IMG/VR virus record: IMGVR_UViG_3300025879_000078
Coordinates: 1 to 28,283 of that record
Length of the DNA: 28,283 nucleotides
Source of the DNA: a virus
Reading direction: 5' to 3' (one strand)
Shown: one piece after another, positions 1,952 through 11,478 of the stretch
Layout: each line of letters starts with the position of its first letter
Numbering within the stretch: the stretch's first letter is position 1
The notes under the pieces: generated by a model
Told to the model about the DNA's origin: nothing
Database searches by the model: none
Seen by the model: only the letters and a program-made list of their open reading frames with translations
Made by a program: the position numbers and the translations under genes

Positions 1952-4435
1952 TCAAGCAAAGAAGTATTTAGCTTTAAGTACTTCAGATACATCGAATGAT
2001 CCTTGCTCTGGTATGTCCGGTAGGTCTACGTCTGGTGCATACTCTTGTATATACGGTGCGAAACTATCAGCTATCCAATTACCTTTGAACATACTATACG
2101 CTGTATCGCGAATGACATCACGCATCACATCCACATTGTTAGGCAACACCGCGAAGCTGTCATGAATCGCAGCGATGCTATGGATATGATGTTCCTCTCG
2201 TAATTCCACCACCACCTTCTGCATCAATGCGGCATCGAGTGAGTGAATGATATTCGGTGAGGAAGACAGCATCTGTTTTCTGACATTCAGTCCGCCGTCA
2301 GGGTTTTCATCCCACATAAAGTAAGAACCCATGACAGTCTTCACGTCAGACTTTGCGACATTCCAATAGGATTGCTGGATGGTAGAACCAACCGGCGTTA
2401 CCCAGCGCAATGGCTTATCGAATTCAGCTAATGCTGTTGCACACTTCTGGAAGTAATCCATGATCGGGCGGCTGGCGACAATAGTCTGGTCGAGAGCAAT
2501 CAATAGTTTGTCTCGCATATACGCCGCGTTCTCTAGTTTATTTCCATCGAGTACATCACAGAAGCCATCCTTGATAAGCTGGTCTTGGATGCCGCGAGGT
2601 GTCACACCGTAGCTGGTCGTCATACAAGCCCGCTTACATACAGACCTGTTGATGTGACCAATCCACTTGTGTGCTTGCTCAAGGTTCACGCCGTTCTGAA
2701 TATCATCAGCGACAAGACGCATTACCACATCAGCCGTTGCACTGTAGATATCAAACCGCTCTGGATCAGCAGAACAGTTTGTCAGCTTTGCACCTACAGC
2801 ATCGCGACCGATAAGAGATAGCAGTTGTAGTCCGTTGTTCGATCCATCCTGATGAACAGGCAGGGTGCAAACAAACTTAGCTGGGTTGTCCATACCAGTA
2901 GCTTGTGTCCAATCCACACACGTCTGCCAGAATTCTAGTTCTGACTCAGCGTGTGTCCATAGACGGTCACCCGATCCGAATGGATCTGTAGCGGACTGAA
3001 CGATCAGGTCATGGTTGTCTGTCGCCCACGTCTGCATCTCTTCGAAAGTGATCTTGTCTTCACCGTATGTATTACACAGACGGACTGCCAACCAGAATAG
3101 ACCACGTTCTCCTAACGGTTCACCGTCAGCAAATCGCATCACGCCTCTGGCTAGGCTATCACCTTGAGGGTTGAGGTCTGGGGTCACATAGTACATACGT
3201 CCGCGACTGTCACACTTGATGACATTGTATAAGTCACGACCTTTGATCTGTTCACCCAGAGTTATCTTACGAATGGTAGCTTCACGTTTAGAAATCTCGC
3301 GTGAATTCTTATCGTGAATATTCGTAAGTTCGTACTTCCATTCAGCCCGCTCGACCTTCGACATGGCATCCCATTCGATCTCGCTCTTACGCGCTGGTAG
3401 TGGTTGTGGGTCTGGCGATGGGATGCATGAGATAGCTTGCGTGTCGTTTATGAAACAATCACGCGCCATCTGTAATGCATCTTCATCAATCCGGAATGGA
3501 CACCAGCCCAGATAGTTGGCTGCCCGTGTAGTAGTACGAGACAGCGGGTCATTCAGGACAGACGTGTGCTTGTGCAATCCGCCGCGAATGAATTCAATAT
3601 CGACCATCATGTAGCCACCATCGTACCGCTGGTTCTCTTCATCCCATGACCACGGGCGTGGCTCAATGATCATTGGCTTTAGAACAGGAGCGGCTAACTC
3701 CAAGCGGCTGTTGATGTCTTCCATCATGGCACGACAGGCATCACTCAGGAATACTTGTCGTTCTGTTTTGTTTCTGACTTGGACGTACCGGAGTTCGAAG
3801 AAGCCCCCACCGTTCTCGATGACGAGGTCGAGGATCTTTGCACCGATGTGCATCCGGACATCTCTTCGCCAATCGAGAGTTTCGATTGACTTGATGCGCC
3901 GTGACCAGTTGCCCCACTGACGCTGGTTGAAGTTCTTCGCCGTCCTGACGAGACGAGCCGCGACATCAATGCCGCCCGACTGTTGTGCTTCATCTTTAGA
4001 ATTCCTTAACCACGTCTCGAACTCGACCTGTTGTTTCATAGCCAGACCAATATCGAGACAGACGTTACGCGCTGGGCGACCAAGGCTGGCTTTCGCTAGA
4101 CGGATAGCCAACACTGAGCGCAGTGCGATGTATGCGATCTTCTCTGGTGACACGAAGCTGATGTACCACCACCAAACGGGGCGTACCCCTGGCCCGCTGT
4201 TGGCAATCCCTTCGATAGCTTGTTCTTGTGCATCACGGATAGCAGGGATAATCATCTGCATTGTTTCCGTGAATATCTTACGCCCAGCCCCAGCGTCTGA
4301 GATACGTCCTTCCGCAAGTAGCTTACGGAATTTCTGAACGCCCTCTTCAACGCCAGCTAGTTCAACCCTGCGCTGTTCTTCTTCTGCCGCCGGATCGAGC
4401 GTGTGTGCTAGTAATGTGCCGAATTGTTTACTCAT
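1952..4435 (-). CDS. Single-subunit phage RNA polymerase
   Basis: This is the T7-type DNA-dependent RNA polymerase that would transcribe the phage middle and late genes. With the start at 4435 it has 827 residues, against 883 in T7. Landmarks in order: the catalytic Asp in HQDGSNNG (about residue 530), the O-helix NRSVCKRACMTTSYG with Lys about 601 and Tyr about 609 (T7 Lys631 and Tyr639), the second catalytic Asp in AIHDSF (about 759), and the C-terminal YFFA that matches the 'foot' of T7 RNAP. The start at 4435 has AAGGG a few bases upstream; a further in-frame ATG at 4486 would add 17 residues without support. The gene follows the integrase and attP, as in temperate cyanophage and pelagiphage relatives. 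Confidence 0.97.
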   Translation of the reverse strand: MSKQFGTLLAHTLDPAAEEEQRRVELAGVEEGVQKFRKLLAEGRISDAGAGRKIFTETMQMIIPAIRDAQEQAIEGIANSGPGVRPVWWWYISFVSPEKIAYIALRSVLAIRLAKASLGRPARNVCLDIGLAMKQQVEFETWLRNSKDEAQQSGGIDVAARLVRTAKNFNQRQWGNWSRRIKSIETLDWRRDVRMHIGAKILDLVIENGGGFFELRYVQVRNKTERQVFLSDACRAMMEDINSRLELAAPVLKPMIIEPRPWSWDEENQRYDGGYMMVDIEFIRGGLHKHTSVLNDPLSRTTTRAANYLGWCPFRIDEDALQMARDCFINDTQAISCIPSPDPQPLPARKSEIEWDAMSKVERAEWKYELTNIHDKNSREISKREATIRKITLGEQIKGRDLYNVIKCDSRGRMYYVTPDLNPQGDSLARGVMRFADGEPLGERGLFWLAVRLCNTYGEDKITFEEMQTWATDNHDLIVQSATDPFGSGDRLWTHAESELEFWQTCVDWTQATGMDNPAKFVCTLPVHQDGSNNGLQLLSLIGRDAVGAKLTNCSADPERFDIYSATADVVMRLVADDIQNGVNLEQAHKWIGHINRSVCKRACMTTSYGVTPRGIQDQLIKDGFCDVLDGNKLENAAYMRDKLLIALDQTIVASRPIMDYFQKCATALAEFDKPLRWVTPVGSTIQQSYWNVAKSDVKTVMGSYFMWDENPDGGLNVRKQMLSSSPNIIHSLDAALMQKVVVELREEHHIHSIAAIHDSFAVLPNNVDVMRDVIRDTAYSMFKGNWIADSFAPYIQEYAPDVDLPDIPEQGSFDVSEVLKAKYFFA

Positions 4436-4535
4436 GTTAACCCTTTGTGTTTGCTGTATTATTAACTTAGGTTCACTGTAGTTCATTGATATAGCAGTGA
4501 AAAAACTAATGGGTTCAATAGGTTAGTCGGGGATT

Positions 4536-4848: not shown

Positions 4849-5985
4849 TTAGTTCCTTAGATTGTTAAGTATGGTTGCCGCCTCGTTTGCCACTTGGCTA
4901 GGCGACAGGTGTGCATAGCGTTGTGTCATTTGGGTATCACTGTGTCCAAGCAGCCGGCTGACTGCGTAGAGTGACATCCCTGCTTGCACCAGACGCGAGG
5001 CGAAAGTATGGCGAAAGCAGTGTACGGTGAACCGACCGTGCCGACTGATAAGAACCTCAGAATTCAGACCGGCACGGTCGATTGCTTTGCGGATACCCTT
5101 CGTTGAGTACCCGCGTGGTTTTGACGGATCGCTTGGGGAGTAAAAGACATAGTGACTGTTGCCGCTAACTCTAAAACGGCGTTGCATTATGTCTTTCAAA
5201 CGATCCGTCATGACTAGCTGACCCTCATTGCCTACCTTCGAGCGGTAAACATTGATTGTCGTCCAGCCGGTGGTGTCTACGCTTGACCACTGGATGCCAG
5301 CGGCTTCGGAGTAGCGGACACCGGTATCGATTAGCACGATAGCTAGGTCGTACTGATCCTGTAGTTTCTGTTGTGTCTCAGGATGCCGGTTGCCAAATCC
5401 TGGCTGACCCTTGATGTCACGTTCCGGATGCAGTTCGGCTAACAGCCGTTCCTCTTCACCGGTCATGAGATACCTTGTCTTATCCTGAGTAGACATCTTG
5501 ATGTTCTTAAAGTTTGCCGACAGATCGACCGCCATGTTGTATTCATCACGGGCTTTCATAAAGACAGACACCCAGAACGTCAGTTCGTTGTTGATGTATC
5601 GCGGTGATAGACCCTCGCGTACCCGCTGGTTCTTCAGCTTGGATAGCCAGTGTTTATTCAGCCGACTGATGGGTTCGCTGCTGTCAGGTTTACTGTACAG
5701 CTTGGACATAAAAGTACGAGCGTCCTTGGCTGATGGCTTACCTGTTGCAATGAGTTCATCAGTGTACATCTGACCAGCTTCAGCAATCGAGCCACTCTCG
5801 CGAACACCAAGTTGATCACGGTCAGTAATCTTCTTGGATATCGCTTGAGCAACCAGACGTGCCTCACGCTTGTCTTTACGTTTCGTTGAGCCACGCTCAT
5901 AGCGAATGACGTGTCCATCATCATCCAGTACTGGCACTTTGTACCACCAGTACGGACTGTTAGGTCTACTGTAGATGTTATCCAT
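4849..5985 (-). CDS. int: Tyrosine integrase
   Basis: The enzyme would integrate and excise the phage genome by tyrosine recombination. With the start at 5985 it has 378 residues. The C-terminal catalytic domain is intact: Arg in DTGVRYSEA (about 224), Lys about 250, His-x-x-Arg in HCFRHTF (322 and 325), His in LLGHSD (348) and the nucleophile Tyr in TQRYAHL (357). Upstream are an arm-type N-terminus and a SAM-like core-binding domain. The start at 5985 has AAGGTGG six bases upstream and overlaps the previous gene by eight bases; an ATG at 6015 is less likely. The fMet-tRNA segment just downstream is its likely attachment site. Confidence 0.96.
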   Translation of the reverse strand: MDNIYSRPNSPYWWYKVPVLDDDGHVIRYERGSTKRKDKREARLVAQAISKKITDRDQLGVRESGSIAEAGQMYTDELIATGKPSAKDARTFMSKLYSKPDSSEPISRLNKHWLSKLKNQRVREGLSPRYINNELTFWVSVFMKARDEYNMAVDLSANFKNIKMSTQDKTRYLMTGEEERLLAELHPERDIKGQPGFGNRHPETQQKLQDQYDLAIVLIDTGVRYSEAAGIQWSSVDTTGWTTINVYRSKVGNEGQLVMTDRLKDIMQRRFRVSGNSHYVFYSPSDPSKPRGYSTKGIRKAIDRAGLNSEVLISRHGRFTVHCFRHTFASRLVQAGMSLYAVSRLLGHSDTQMTQRYAHLSPSQVANEAATILNNLRN

Positions 5986-6349
5986 TGGATGCCACCTTGT
6001 GATACTCTTCGACAACTGTTTCAGGTAGTGTCTGAAGTAATACGTTTTGTATTCTCAGGTGTGGTTTAGCAGTACCAAACTTTCCAGTGTGATGGATAAG
6101 TCCTTCATCGATAAATATCTGTGCCACTGGGTCACCAGCGTAGTCATGGTTGTCATAAATGACACACCAGCCATCACCATATTCGGTAGTACCAAAGACA
6201 TACCAGCAAGGGCGATAAAGATTACCGAATGATTTACACACATCAGTTATAACTTTCATCTCTTCTTTAGTGAAGTTTCTGAAACGTGTTCGCCATTCAT
6301 CCAGATCAACTACGTTGTCTACATAATTATCTAATACACTTCGGCTCAT
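5978..6349 (-). CDS. Unknown protein upstream of integrase
   Basis: This 123-residue acidic protein has no recognised family. It contains an aromatic-rich middle (residues about 48-70, with CWYVFGTTEYGDGWCVIYDN). The start has GGAG eight bases upstream. It sits between the Cro/CI-type regulator and the integrase with minimal gaps, ending eight bases inside the integrase gene, so the three are probably co-transcribed. A role in lysogeny control or excision is a guess from position; it lacks the small basic winged-helix look of known excisionases. Confidence 0.7.
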   Translation of the reverse strand: MSRSVLDNYVDNVVDLDEWRTRFRNFTKEEMKVITDVCKSFGNLYRPCWYVFGTTEYGDGWCVIYDNHDYAGDPVAQIFIDEGLIHHTGKFGTAKPHLRIQNVLLQTLPETVVEEYHKVASNG

Positions 6350-7549: not shown

Positions 7550-8053
7550 CTAACAGCACTCACAGTCAGCGATTGGCTTACCATTGCGGCACACATCGTC
7601 AGGCTCGAAGTAACTTTCGCCCATGTGATAGTCGTACTGGTCATTGAAGATGTCTTGCGCCCAATCTGAATAGCGAATGTCGCCGTTCTCTTCATGCACA
7701 TAGACAGGCTCACCGTCTTGCATAACTTCTGCATAGAAGATGCCCTGCATGAACAGGTCAGCGCGTTCTGAGGCATTCTCGATGCGCTCTGACTCAGTGG
7801 CATACTTGTCCTGCATTCCCTTGAATGTCAGGGTGTTTATCTCATGCAGTTTTTGTTTGAATTCATCCGCCCTGTTCTGATGCAGATGCTGGATGGCTTG
7901 ATACAGTCTATGCGCTAAGTCCATCTGTTCGGCGTTCAGCCATTCCAATCTCATCAGCCCGTATTCCATATTCTTACGGGCGGCATTTACAGAGCGGTGC
8001 TGTTGCGGCTTGTGGTCGGGATAAGTTTTCCCTGTCAAAATACATTTTGTCAT
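7550..8053 (-). CDS. Unknown protein downstream of hammerhead copy 2
   Basis: The chosen start at 8053 has AGAGGAAA upstream and gives 167 residues. The frame stays open upstream to 8311, but that part overlaps the ribozyme and the 65-residue gene and has unlikely composition. The protein starts MTKCILTGKTYPDHK. The middle (residues about 25-105) is helical and rich in Glu, Gln and Lys. The C-terminus is acidic and ends in a cysteine cluster, CECC. No family is recognised. Its leader is the hammerhead at 8070-8158, so its mRNA would have a self-made 5' end about 63 bases before the start codon. Confidence 0.7.
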   Translation of the reverse strand: MTKCILTGKTYPDHKPQQHRSVNAARKNMEYGLMRLEWLNAEQMDLAHRLYQAIQHLHQNRADEFKQKLHEINTLTFKGMQDKYATESERIENASERADLFMQGIFYAEVMQDGEPVYVHEENGDIRYSDWAQDIFNDQYDYHMGESYFEPDDVCRNGKPIADCECC

Positions 8054-8069: not shown

Positions 8070-8158
8070 TCGATACAATAGCTGGCATCGTCAGGCACAT
8101 GGAACAACCCATGCACGACCGCCCGCCGGAGCGGGCAGTTTCGCCTAGTTGAAATCGA
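8070..8158 (-). ncRNA. Type II hammerhead ribozyme, copy 2
   Basis: In the minus-strand RNA, helix II is open-ended: outer UCGAU/AUCGA and inner GGC/GCC around an internal loop. Next comes the core GAAA, then helix III (nine pairs, one wobble, with loop UCCG) starting at the A15.1-U16.1 pair. Then comes the cleavage triplet GUC, helix I (eight pairs with loop GUUGUU) and the core CUGACGA. This is the hammerhead fold with helix II open (type II). Predicted cleavage falls between 8117 and 8116. One unpaired U stands between A9 and helix II; extra residues are known there in some natural hammerheads. The last codons and stop of the 65-residue gene lie in the upstream strand of helix II. Core and spacing match copy 1 while the helices differ by compensatory changes. 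Confidence 0.85.
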
Positions 8159-8342
8159 GCGGTATTGGATCACCGCATACCTGATCGTCTGCACCCAGAT
8201 AGAAACAGTCGATGTGATCTTGGGCTTCGTCAGCGCACCGGATATCTGACCGCTGGCTGATATAGACTGGCGCGGGTATCTCGTCCTGTACGCGGTCGCG
8301 TGATGCCGCAATGATTACGGAAATTTCGTTGAGTGATAGCAT
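8145..8342 (-). CDS. Unknown protein, 65 residues
   Basis: The frame starts after AAGGAAT and follows the methyltransferase gene by 23 bases. The protein is acidic, with a short hydrophobic N-terminal helix (LNEISVIIAAS) and two cysteines, and has no recognised family. Its final codons and stop form one strand of helix II of hammerhead copy 2. Translation to the stop codon would therefore disturb ribozyme folding, and cleavage would leave this gene's message with a new 3' end just after its stop. Confidence 0.6.
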   Translation of the reverse strand: MLSLNEISVIIAASRDRVQDEIPAPVYISQRSDIRCADEAQDHIDCFYLGADDQVCGDPIPLDFN

Positions 8343-8365: not shown

Positions 8366-9463
8366 CTATGCGACAGCGCGTTTTGCTGTAGCTAGGTTTT
8401 CGAATAGGTACGCAATGACCGGCACAGTCCAGCCATTGCCTAGCATCCGGTAACGCTGGGTGTTTGAGACGTGCGCGGTGTAATCTGTCCTAACGCCCTG
8501 TAAAGCCTCACATTCACGGGGCGTTAATTTTCGCCACTTCACGTCATCGATGGACACCGCGACATTATCTTTTTGGACGGTGGTCAGGCTGTTTGTGCGC
8601 CCGTCTAGCTGTAGTTCTAAACGCTGGCTTGTGCCGCCGTCTGGGTCGTACCGTCCGCGAAATGCACCGCACAAAACTTTCGGCTCTAGATTGCCCCCAG
8701 AATTGGCACACAATGACGGGGCTTTGCCGTCTGGGTGATACACCCGCCGATTATAGTCATGCCCCTTTAGGTCGGCGTGTCCGGCTAGTATTAGCCCGCT
8801 GTCAATCTCAGCGACTAACTGCCGCCTGTTTTTCATGAAATATGACCGCAGATTGCCGCCTTTGAAATAATTCGCATCGATGCAATGCGCCTTGTCGCGG
8901 TCGGTGAAACCACTTTCCAGAATATCGCCCAGCTTTACACCGGCATCGGCTGGCAATTCGTTTAGCGGAATGTTTGTCCAATAGACGCGGTGGCGGTTCT
9001 GAGCGGTAAACCGATTGCTGTTTATATGCACCGGCTGGACGCTATAGCCAGCCTCTGCCAGATAGTCGGTGATAGCCTGTTCGTTGTCTTTTTTCATGCG
9101 GACATTTTCCAGCAAGAAATAGCGGGGCTTTAGTGATTTTAACAGCCGGACATATTCAAAGAATAATGCGCCTCTATCGCCGTTAAAGCCCGCCTGTTTA
9201 CCGGCAAAACTGAAATCCTGACAAGGCGACCCGCCTATCAGCAAATCGATTTCATGCGCCCCGTCATGGGTTAGCAAATAGCCCTCTTCTGAATAGACCG
9301 ACCGAACATCGCCAAGCTGGACGGTATCCGGATAATTCGCTTGCGTTACCTGAATTGCAAATTTGTCTAATTCGCTGGCAAAATATTTTGTGATAGGTAC
9401 GCCCGCCCGTTCTAATGCTTGGCGACCGCAAGACATACCGTCAAATAATGATAAAACTTTCAT
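8366..9463 (-). CDS. C5-cytosine DNA methyltransferase
   Basis: The 365-residue enzyme would transfer a methyl group from S-adenosylmethionine to cytosine C5. All main motifs are present: motif I LSLFDGMSCGRQAL (about 4-17), catalytic Pro-Cys in GGSPCQDFSFAGK (Cys about 81), motif VI LLENV (about 117-121), motif VIII QNRHRVYW, then a target-recognition region, motif IX RKLTPRECEALQG and motif X RMLGNGWTVP. No restriction enzyme gene is visible nearby, so it is likely an orphan that protects phage DNA or alters regulation. The start at 9463 has AAGGAAA upstream; an ATG at 9490 lies inside the ribozyme leader and is unlikely. The leader carries hammerhead copy 1 and a promoter-like motif. Confidence 0.95.
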   Translation of the reverse strand: MKVLSLFDGMSCGRQALERAGVPITKYFASELDKFAIQVTQANYPDTVQLGDVRSVYSEEGYLLTHDGAHEIDLLIGGSPCQDFSFAGKQAGFNGDRGALFFEYVRLLKSLKPRYFLLENVRMKKDNEQAITDYLAEAGYSVQPVHINSNRFTAQNRHRVYWTNIPLNELPADAGVKLGDILESGFTDRDKAHCIDANYFKGGNLRSYFMKNRRQLVAEIDSGLILAGHADLKGHDYNRRVYHPDGKAPSLCANSGGNLEPKVLCGAFRGRYDPDGGTSQRLELQLDGRTNSLTTVQKDNVAVSIDDVKWRKLTPRECEALQGVRTDYTAHVSNTQRYRMLGNGWTVPVIAYLFENLATAKRAVA

Positions 9464-9483: not shown

Positions 9484-9568
9484 GATGCATTGGCTGGCAT
9501 CGTCAGGACGGATAAACCACTATCCGCCGACCGGCGACCATTGCCGCCGGTTTCGCCTTTACTATATC
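9484..9568 (-). ncRNA. Type II hammerhead ribozyme, copy 1
   Basis: The RNA runs GAU, internal loop, GGC, then GAAA. Helix III follows with nine pairs and loop AAUG, starting from the A15.1-U16.1 pair. Then come the cleavage triplet GUC, helix I (eight pairs including one G-U, loop GUGGUU), the core CUGACGA, an unpaired U, GCC, a loop and AUC. Predicted cleavage is between 9529 and 9528, inside the gap between the GP88-family gene and the methyltransferase gene, about 65 bases before the methyltransferase start. Forty-two bases separate the conserved AGGCGAAAC from CCUGACGAUGCCAGC in both copies. Most helical pairs differ between copies yet stay paired. Loop I (GUKGUU) could dock on the helix II internal loop, as in fast natural hammerheads. 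Confidence 0.87.
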
Positions 9569-9572
9569 GCGC

Positions 9573-9582
9573 TTTACTGTAC
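9573..9582 (-). promoter_or_regulatory. Candidate phage promoter (GTACAGTAAA) before the methyltransferase
   Basis: The minus strand reads GTACAGTAAAGC, sharing the stop codon TAA of the GP88-family gene. It points towards the ribozyme leader and the methyltransferase gene 110 bases further on. A second AGTAAAG follows 17 bases later. It is one of four same-strand exact copies of this ten-base core. Confidence 0.45.
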
Positions 9583-10431
9583 ATCGACCACAAAGCCGGA
9601 ACGGTCAGTCTTTGCGCCGCCCTTGGCATATAGCGCAACGATAACGCCGGACGGTTCAAGAAACCGCAAATCGGTATCATCGCCATCAATGCAAGGCATC
9701 CCCAAAAATTCCGCCGGTATGCTTTCACGCGTCCGGAAAACTACAGCAATGCGATAGCCTAGCTGGATGGCGGTTTCTACTTGTTTTAGATAGCGGGGAT
9801 TTGCGCCGGAATAGCTGAAAGTTAAATCATAAACGCTAGTATCTGGAATAATGCGATTTGCGATTTTTGTGTAATCGTACCACTTCACCCCGCGCTTGCT
9901 AGTCGCGACCATCAACGACCAGATATGATTTTCCCAACGAATATCGCTTGTTCCGTTAGGGCGAATTGCGGGCGTTAAATCGCGCTTGGCACAATAGGCA
10001 ATCAGCTTGTCCGCCTCTTTTGCCAATAGGGCTTTGAACGCGTCCGGATGGTCAAACCAAAATAGCGTTTTGCGAATACGGTAAATCTGGACTGATTGCA
10101 TCTGCCCGCGTCCGGCAGTGTTTAGGCATCCATCGATGCATGATGCTAGTTTTGCCATAGGGCAGACATTGCGACCGGATAGGCTGGCTGGCGCGAGATA
10201 TAAAACGCCCGTCCGGATTTCTTTTTTCTCGCCTTTAATGGTTTTCGCATTGGCAAAATTTAACAGGCGTTCCGGTAATTTGGTGAAATCCGCCGACCAT
10301 TTATCGCTGGCGACTATTTGGTTTTTTACGTCATCCGGCAAGTTTACGAATGACGGATAAACGTCAATGATGCGCTTTAAGCGCGCTAGTGCTTCGAATG
10401 ATTTGATGAAATCGTTAGATATTGCGTTCAT
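9574..10431 (-). CDS. GP88-family phage protein
   Basis: This 285-residue protein matches the 'gene product 88' family, widespread in phages and without an established function. The family signature is a cysteine-rich segment at residues about 90-109, CPMAKLASCIDGCLNTAGRG, with Cys at about 90, 98 and 102. Later come conserved blocks around RPNGTSDIRWE and WYDYTKIANR. The cysteines could hold a metal. It is the first gene after the non-coding junction region, and AAAGG lies upstream of its start. It is followed by the ribozyme and methyltransferase, so it may act in the same early DNA- or host-directed process. That link is inference. Confidence 0.85.
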   Translation of the reverse strand: MNAISNDFIKSFEALARLKRIIDVYPSFVNLPDDVKNQIVASDKWSADFTKLPERLLNFANAKTIKGEKKEIRTGVLYLAPASLSGRNVCPMAKLASCIDGCLNTAGRGQMQSVQIYRIRKTLFWFDHPDAFKALLAKEADKLIAYCAKRDLTPAIRPNGTSDIRWENHIWSLMVATSKRGVKWYDYTKIANRIIPDTSVYDLTFSYSGANPRYLKQVETAIQLGYRIAVVFRTRESIPAEFLGMPCIDGDDTDLRFLEPSGVIVALYAKGGAKTDRSGFVVDVQ

Positions 10432-10560: not shown

Positions 10561-10890
10561 AAATAAAAAAACAGTGTATCGCATCCAAGCGATATCTGGC
10601 AGAAATCCGCCGTTTTTGCGCGTTATGCGCTAGGCAGCTTTTATCTAATCGCCAGCGATTGCCGGACGCGCATTGCCATAACATGAAAGCCCGACCGACT
10701 AACTGCCCGCTATGCCTAGCGATTGCCGGTCGCCGGTCGCTAATGTGCCAGCAATGTGCCAAGCGCGCCGGATTTGACAGCAGAAAAAATCTGCCGGCAT
10801 CTGGCCAGCCTGGTCGAGGGGGGTCACGGGGGGAACTCAATTCGGTTTGGCAAAAAACACCCCATACGAATTGATGTCAATTTTTGAAAA

Positions 10891-10970
10891 TGGTGGAGAT
10901 GTCCGGAGTCGAACCGGAGTCCACACAGATTCCTCACGGCTTTACTGTGTGTCTAACCCTAATCATCCCC
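10891..10970 (-). ncRNA. tRNA/tmRNA-like RNA, about 80 nt
   Basis: The minus strand ends in a T arm (TCCGG, TTCGACT, CCGGA), then CATCTCC, A and CCA, as in the 3' end of bacterial tmRNA. Seventy-nine bases earlier, GGGGATG can pair with CATCTCC (seven pairs, one wobble) and is followed by ATTAGGGTTAGAC, which recalls the tmRNA 5' end (GATT..GG.TT.GAC). Between them, where tmRNA would carry its pseudoknots and tag frame, is a single hairpin, CACACAG/CTGTGTG with a 16-base loop. That loop can pair with CTCACGG upstream at 10990-10996. No normal anticodon arm can be drawn. It may be a reduced tmRNA-like molecule, a degenerate tRNA or an attachment-site remnant. Confidence 0.5.
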
Positions 10971-10998
10971 ATAGTAGCCCATAGAAGCCCCGTGAGTG

Positions 10999-11045
10999 CC
11001 TTAGTACACCGCAAGTGGTACATACCCACTACAGTAGTACTAAGG
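10999..11045 (-). repeat. Inverted repeat with nested hairpin after the endolysin gene
   Basis: CCTTAGTAC at 10999-11007 and GTACTAAGG at 11037-11045 form a perfect nine-base-pair stem. Inside it AGTGG and CCACT form a second five-base-pair hairpin. It stands 23 bases after the end of the endolysin gene and may be a terminator-like or RNA-processing structure at the end of the late transcript. No T-run follows. Confidence 0.5.
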
Positions 11046-11067
11046 ACACTGTACGAGCCTCACACGG

Positions 11068-11478
11068 CTAAACCGGATGACCCTCGATTTCCACGGGATA
11101 ATGCCCCCAAGACAACTGGAAGTGTGGCCCGTCCTTGAAGCTAGTCCAATCGCCGCCCCATTCGATAGGCGTTTTGCATTCATACGCTGCCTGTTTGAAC
11201 GCACTAGCGATCTTTTCGTACAGCGGCATAGCCCATTGTGCCTTACCGTCCACATACGCAAAGACATCAACTGCGTGTCCTGTCAAATGACGTGACTTCA
11301 TAGTTGTTGATGCTCCGGTACGGACGTACTCTTCTTGTGTCTTGATGTCTCTCAAGCCCTCAGAGACACCAAAGTCTATCTCTGTGATCTCTATTGCGCG
11401 TTTGACAACGTCCACTAGGTCAGGGTGTACCCCTTCTAGTCGGCTCAGTGATCTCTCGCTTAACTTATACTGGCTCAT
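11068..11478 (-). CDS. Endolysin, M15-type peptidase
   Basis: This 136-residue protein is a zinc L-alanyl-D-glutamate (or D-Ala-D-Ala-type) peptidase of the VanY/M15 group, which cuts peptidoglycan stem peptides at lysis. The zinc motif is complete: SRHLTGHAVD (His about 64, Asp about 71) and DGPHFQLSW (His about 119), with an upstream SEGLR segment typical of the family. It has no signal peptide or cell-wall-binding domain, so it should need the holin to leave the cytoplasm. AGGAAA precedes the start at 11478, and the gene overlaps the terminase end by 14 bases. T7 uses an amidase encoded elsewhere instead. Confidence 0.93.
   Translation of the reverse strand: MSQYKLSERSLSRLEGVHPDLVDVVKRAIEITEIDFGVSEGLRDIKTQEEYVRTGASTTMKSRHLTGHAVDVFAYVDGKAQWAMPLYEKIASAFKQAAYECKTPIEWGGDWTSFKDGPHFQLSWGHYPVEIEGHPV

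Follow-up and report, generated by a model that had tools for sequence, protein, structure and literature searches.

We found that positions 9488-9558 of the window (the whole stretch of 28,283 bases analyzed here) almost certainly form a type II hammerhead ribozyme on the minus strand. It is one of a pair of hammerheads on either side of a C5 cytosine DNA methyltransferase gene, and these elements probably punctuate a phage operon, cutting its transcripts by themselves into separate mRNAs with a hairpin at each new end.

Identification of a type II hammerhead

We searched both strands of the 28 kb window with all 4227 Rfam families. Hammerhead 1 matched Hammerhead_II (RF02276) with 51.3 bits (E 5.7e-8) against a gathering score of 37, so that the hammerhead which the original prediction had read from the letters is also recognized by a covariance search. 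The MFE fold of 9560-9488 (minus strand) is an exact three-way hammerhead (-31.7 kcal/mol, z -2.75), in which helices I and III are closed by loops and helix II is open. The type II identity, first proposed on account of the open helix II, is borne out because the covariance model, the MFE fold, and the covariation among related copies (see below) all point to it. Inspection of the sequence recovered every claimed element of the hammerhead on the minus strand and in its place, and the core gave the same cleavage position, 9529/9528. The parts of the element are as follows.

9488-9558, minus strand: hammerhead 1 (type II), whole element, from the RF02276 match
9557-9555 (GGC) with 9498-9496 (GCC), minus strand: helix II of hammerhead 1, 3 bp
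9554-9552, minus strand: GAA of the core, from the sequence
9530-9551, minus strand: helix III hairpin, 9 bp with an AAUG tetraloop, closed by A15.1-U16.1, from the MFE fold
9528-9529, minus strand: predicted cleavage site, 3' of C17 (9529), from the core position in the sequence
9507-9528, minus strand: helix I hairpin, 8 bp and the 6-nt loop GUGGUU, from the MFE fold
9506-9500, minus strand: core CUGACGA, from the sequence
9499, minus strand: extra U, from the sequence
9491-9495, minus strand: 3' tail AGCCA, pseudoknot partner of loop I at 9519-9515 (UGGUU), from covariation in nine copies

The catalytic core expected of a hammerhead (CUGANGA and GAAA, A15.1-U16.1, H at position 17) is present as CUGACGA, GAAA, and GUC in both copies of the window. 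A structural enumerator requiring the core and three helices picked out 2 matches in the window, each on the minus strand. The same search of both strands of 300 dinucleotide shuffles gave 0, which rules out a chance origin of the hammerheads. No ligand domain was detected at hammerhead 1, nor any other Rfam RNA at the site, nor a match to the glmS family. The 3-bp helix II had been regarded as the weakest point of the element, but most of the 150 enumerated copies have a helix II of this length, which makes it usual in the family.

A second hammerhead and the order of genes

Hammerhead 1 had been described as an element in the leader of the methyltransferase gene. It does sit in this 5' leader, but it is not alone, since a second hammerhead, absent from the original prediction together with the pseudoknot between loop I and the 3' tail, lies at 8076-8146. 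These are the only two hammerheads in the 28,283-base record. The leftward gene order is the GP88-family gene, hammerhead 1, the C5 methyltransferase gene, a 65-aa ORF, hammerhead 2, and then a gene of unknown function. Protein family matches agree with the neighbors that had been named, GP88 upstream and a C5 methyltransferase downstream.

9574-10431, minus strand: GP88-family gene, PF17338 (E 7.6e-34), stop codon 16 nt from helix II of hammerhead 1
8366-9463, minus strand: C5 cytosine DNA methyltransferase gene, PF00145 (E 5.8e-53), ATG at 9463, SD-like AGGA at 9476-9473
8145-8342, minus strand: small ORF between the methyltransferase gene and hammerhead 2, 65 aa, without family
8076-8146, minus strand: hammerhead 2 (type II), RF02276 with 39.2 bits (gathering score 37)
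8117/8116, minus strand: predicted cleavage of hammerhead 2
7550-8053, minus strand: gene of unknown function led by hammerhead 2, 167 aa, ATG at 8053

The predicted 3' product of hammerhead 1 starts at 9528, leaving a leader of 65 nt to the methyltransferase ATG, and the predicted cut of hammerhead 2 lies 63 nt from the ATG at 8053. The small ORF terminates in a UAG (8147-8145) that reaches into hammerhead 2, where it covers the first base of helix II. The pseudoknot of loop I with the 3' tail has 5 bp in hammerhead 1; in hammerhead 2 it has one U-U mismatch, with 3 of the 4 counted pairs formed. Given this mismatch and its lower score, hammerhead 2 may be slower than hammerhead 1. Both copies have an extra U after A9 and a 22-nt helix I hairpin, and the letters that they have in common are those of the core only, their helices being different. 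No promoters were found on the minus strand near the hammerheads, with fewer sites than in shuffles.

In another part of the window, a gene for a T7-type RNA polymerase (1952-4486, minus strand) adjoins one for a tyrosine integrase (4849-6015, minus strand). The polymerase has only ~27% identity to known phages. Judging from these two genes, the window phage is a temperate phage that has diverged from its T7-like relatives.

A tmRNA-like gene

The window also carries a tag-less tmRNA-like gene of 80 nt at 10891-10970 on the minus strand (RF00023, 61.4 bits). Its acceptor, T arm, and CCA are complete and G3-U70 is kept, without a tag reading frame. The gene is conserved in L003, L006, L117, and L160, where the long arm shows paired changes, and it always lies between the endolysin gene and the GP88 or GP88-like gene. 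Inverted repeats flank it (10790-11070, minus strand) and are partly kept in L006 (TCAATTCG ... CGAATTGA after the gene); they could serve in processing, as a terminator, or for attachment. The GTDB species genomes searched contain no match to the exact 32-nt 3' end of the gene, and an attachment site at this place is thus unsupported. A similar RNA comprising only the tRNA-like domain occurs in Mycobacteriophage DS6A, and such RNAs inhibit the host tmRNA (PMC4131195, PMC11915505). One possibility is that the RNA of the window acts as a decoy, aimed at SmpB or the rescue system.

Related copies and covariation

The phage collection gave only short matches to the window at the DNA level, one of which is the Issmi hammerhead itself. 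The order of hammerhead, methyltransferase, and hammerhead is also found in the contigs G002, G017, and G072 (the methyltransferase gene of the last is broken by contig ends), and the shorter contigs G001, G003, and G094 have single copies. The hammerhead is absent from 44 of the 48 contigs of the phage's relatives, nearly all of which were found via the methyltransferase. Hence, the ribozyme goes with the phage group and not with the enzyme, and we rejected a regulator specific to methyltransferase genes.

The relatives differ in the small ORF before hammerhead 2 and in which gene precedes hammerhead 1, but retain the hammerheads and the stop-codon overlap. The slot between the methyltransferase gene and hammerhead 2 (8145-8342 of the window, minus strand, and its equivalents in L005 and L020) is occupied by unrelated small ORFs that end at the start of hammerhead 2 or adjoin it, and is a site of gene turnover. 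Tiny predicted membrane proteins are encoded between the GP88 or GP88-like gene and hammerhead 1 in L004 (5776-6042) and L117 (13631-13810), their stop codons abutting the hammerhead. The window has no such ORF at this place.

We assessed covariation in nine copies, i.e., hammerhead 1 of the window, L003, L004, L006, L020, and L117, and hammerhead 2 of the window, L005, and L020. With the copies trimmed by hand to the core, the helices, the pseudoknot letters of loop I, and the tail, a structure-guided procedure that leans towards structure, 95.6% of the pair cells are formed versus 72.8% in shuffles. There are 38 double-change cells versus 12.6 in shuffles, none of the 500 shuffles being as high, and double changes affect 13 of the 20 pairs. 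When the structure is slid along the alignment, pairing collapses. The size of the covariation effect and this control are clear despite the structure-guided trimming. Double changes are found at all 7 counted pairs of helix I, where hammerhead 1 of L020 and of L117 have two U-U mismatches in common. Helix III is 100% paired across the nine copies, and helix II and the catalytic core are invariant. The pairs of the pseudoknot covary as well (91.7% of cells paired), e.g., loop UGGUU with tail AGCCA in hammerhead 1 of the window and AAUC with GAUU in L003. Across the 150 phage copies, the pairing of each loop with its own tail has a mean score of 15.4, versus 13.8 (sd 0.25) when tails are dealt among copies, the highest of 300 deals being 14.5.

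The extra residue after A9 and the length of helix I

The extra U at 9499 had been taken as natural variation, and the wider family agrees: 94 of the 150 phage copies have a one-residue insertion after A9, which is a U in 89. This insertion is associated with the length of helix I. It comes with a 22-nt helix I hairpin in 55 of 81 distinct helix I sequences; copies without it have a hairpin of 21 or 23 nt, and one of 22 nt in 4 of 42 distinct sequences (Fisher p 2e-10, ancestry uncorrected). In copies chosen without the scan pattern the trend holds (32 of 41 versus 7 of 56), and it is repeated in the set from bacterial and archaeal genomes. The extra U may thus compensate for helix I length, so that loop I would stay within reach of the tail.

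Type II hammerheads in a wider family of phages

A pattern scan of IMG/VR gave 62 stretches, and in the records concerned RF02276 matched up to 17 copies per record, and 11 in the Streptomyces phage Issmi. In nine loci of these hammerhead phages, every ribozyme match is of type II, with no other class above threshold. Five annotated genomes of Streptomyces phages contain 41 enumerated copies in sense orientation and 0 in antisense. They lie in intergenic gaps, at a distance from helix II to the start codon of mostly 10-32 nt (median 24).

These positions are regular across the family. Using simple ORF calling and leaving shared ancestry uncorrected, we found an SD and a start codon 6-60 nt after the hammerhead in 124 of the 150 copies (median 25, quartiles 22-28), compared with 22% in a random control, and the stop codon of the upstream ORF within -4 to +5 nt of helix II in 63 of the 150, compared with 3.9% at random positions. 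Among 40 copies from bacterial or archaeal genomes, 37 have the SD and start codon (median 24) and 21 have a stop codon near helix II. The DNA pattern was present in 117 genome contigs, of which 99 lack a copy foldable by the enumerator. Many of these 99 are probably chance matches to the DNA pattern, and the enumerator also misses genuine copies with mismatches in helix I.

The genes led by hammerheads are diverse: their 122 proteins cover 52 PHROG families, mostly of unknown function, with methyltransferases, ArdA, and ArdC in the minority, and no common function emerged from them. Megablast of L135 and L106 against phages gave no match. Head-to-tail doubles of hammerheads, a few nucleotides apart, occur in L103, L121, L122, L136, and L158 (10073-10137 and 10139-10205 in the last) and, as arranged, would release a tiny RNA of ~70 nt. 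In L159, from Streptomyces phage Omar, positions 10768-10885 (minus strand, ~118 nt) match the Rfam bacterial SSU rRNA with 68 bits.

Probable processing of phage transcripts

The most likely role of the hammerheads is the mRNA processing of the operon. From the sequence, fold, covariation, loop I-tail pairing, and position described above, we infer cleavage, its timing, and an effect on mRNA stability. A phage polymerase would make a long leftward transcript, and both hammerheads would cut themselves just 3' of C17 (9529/9528 and 8117/8116), separating GP88, the methyltransferase with the small ORF, and the following genes into individual mRNAs. The upstream mRNA would end in helix III followed by UC and a 2',3'-cyclic phosphate, and the downstream mRNA would begin with a 5'-OH and, immediately after, helix I. 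Since the type II arrangement keeps helices I and III closed beside the cut, each new end would carry a whole hairpin; the median energies in the wider copies are about -13 kcal/mol for helix I and about -11 kcal/mol for helix III. This would amount to operon punctuation and end protection in cis and without protein, a counterpart of the RNase III sites in the early mRNA of T7. The latter are intergenic hairpins where a long transcript is cut into stable gene-sized mRNAs, and they thus resemble our elements in being hairpins between genes, but their cutter is a host protein, whereas in our proposal it is the RNA itself.

The positional rules (a stop codon at helix II, a start codon ~25 nt further on, an orientation that is always sense, many copies, diverse genes) argue for mRNA processing over ligand sensing, and the many families of led genes, with no common class, favor a general processing role. 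Counting against the proposal, most of the operon of the window phage is left unpunctuated by two copies only. A switch at the ribosome binding site was rejected, as the accessibility of the SD is equal before and after the cut: its unpaired probability over 124 leaders is 0.535 in the cut and 0.529 in the uncut RNA, and 0.43 and 0.46 in hammerhead 1.

Cleavage could also be gated by translation, if the terminating ribosome masked the GAAA strand and the cut were made only once the upstream gene is no longer translated. The stop codons within -4 to +5 nt of helix II in the phage and genome sets are consistent with this, as is the UAG that overlaps helix II of hammerhead 2, whose position is kept in relatives though the ORF differs. 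However, such overlap may reflect the mere tight packing of phage genes, and in hammerhead 1 the distance from stop to helix II is 16 nt. We find gating rather doubtful as an account of the pair. It is unlikely, and more so than gating, that cleavage serves to limit expression, with the downstream mRNA losing its 5' triphosphate and decaying, which would confine the synthesis of early anti-restriction proteins, among them the methyltransferase, to a brief period. There is a precedent in Bacillus subtilis, where the ribozyme-made 5'-OH end exposes the glmS mRNA to destruction by RNase J1 (PMC3997798), and for the same reason the end protection of the processing proposal is not assured in every host. 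Some of the led genes are indeed anti-restriction genes (methyltransferase, ArdA, ArdC), and published hammerheads flank ardA. On the other hand, helix I closes at the first nucleotide of the product and should thereby impede decay from the 5' end, the led genes belong to many different families, and the ligand domain and the glmS family match are absent.

The pair might instead mark a mobile cassette, in which DNA or RNA units between copies are swapped among phages via the repeated ribozyme sequences. The neighbors that vary in relatives around hammerheads that stay would fit such exchange, but we hold it to be improbable: the two copies of one phage, alike in their core only, are poor recombination substrates, the close spacing to start codons is needless for a mere boundary mark, and published work detected no circular or spliced product (PMC3088659). 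Finally, a functionless relic or chance fold, to which the lack of hammerheads in most methyltransferase relatives might point, is hardly credible given the invariant core and covarying helices of the nine copies, the empty shuffles, and the positional regularity across phage and genome copies.

Comparison with known systems

The hammerheads of the window, which we take to be engaged in mRNA processing, belong to a known type of element. Perreault et al. described in 2011 type II hammerheads, their pseudoknot, and tandem copies flanking prophage genes, including ardA, and they observed cleavage of the tandem phage hammerheads both in vitro and in E. coli (PMC3088659). The window shares with the RF02276 hammerheads the core, the open helix II of 2-4 bp, the closed helices I and III, the pseudoknot, and the flanking of single genes or short blocks of them in phage DNA. 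Unlike the published cases, its pair stands around a C5 methyltransferase gene, the temperate phage itself encodes a T7-type RNA polymerase, and in both copies a 22-nt helix I hairpin accompanies the extra U after A9. The triple hammerheads at ardA in Agrobacterium tumefaciens and the ardA copies of Legionella, which cut in vitro and in E. coli, are likewise associated with a gene of the anti-restriction type (PMC3088659), but the protein in the window is a methyltransferase and not ArdA, and there are two copies, not three.

The arrays of the Streptomyces phages Issmi, Salutena, Spernnie, Sentinel, and Omar have the same type of ribozyme, likewise placed between a stop codon and an SD, and a window copy is 80% identical to an Issmi copy over 61 nt. 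They differ in their many copies per genome (11 in Issmi versus two in the window) and their unrelated genes. Our literature search on hammerheads in Streptomyces phages found no relevant report. The glmS ribozyme is also a self-cleaving RNA of an mRNA leader that leaves a 5'-OH, as predicted for the window element, but it has another fold, requires glucosamine-6-phosphate, and has no match in the window. A haloviral hammerhead lies 13 nt before a start codon, and the 5' end of the mRNA maps within 3 nt of the cut (PMC3088659). What hammerheads do in bacteria and phages has been called an open question since 2010-2011 (PMC3088659, PMC6155905, PMC10085705). The papers examined contain no earlier statement of the positional rules, nor of the way the extra U is coupled to helix I length.

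We tentatively extend the proposal beyond the window: type II hammerheads could possibly be a general, protein-free punctuation of phage operons, placed at nearly fixed spacing in the slot between stop codon and SD, with hairpins capping both ends and with cutting timed by upstream translation. Under this extension, only type II would be found in these arrays because its own hairpins cap both cut ends, and the timing would follow from the stop codon sitting in helix II. The coupling between the extra U and helix I length offers a structural rule for the design of fast type II ribozymes. From the positional rules, 5' ends can be predicted exactly in cultured Streptomyces phages, which makes the role of the ribozyme easy to test.
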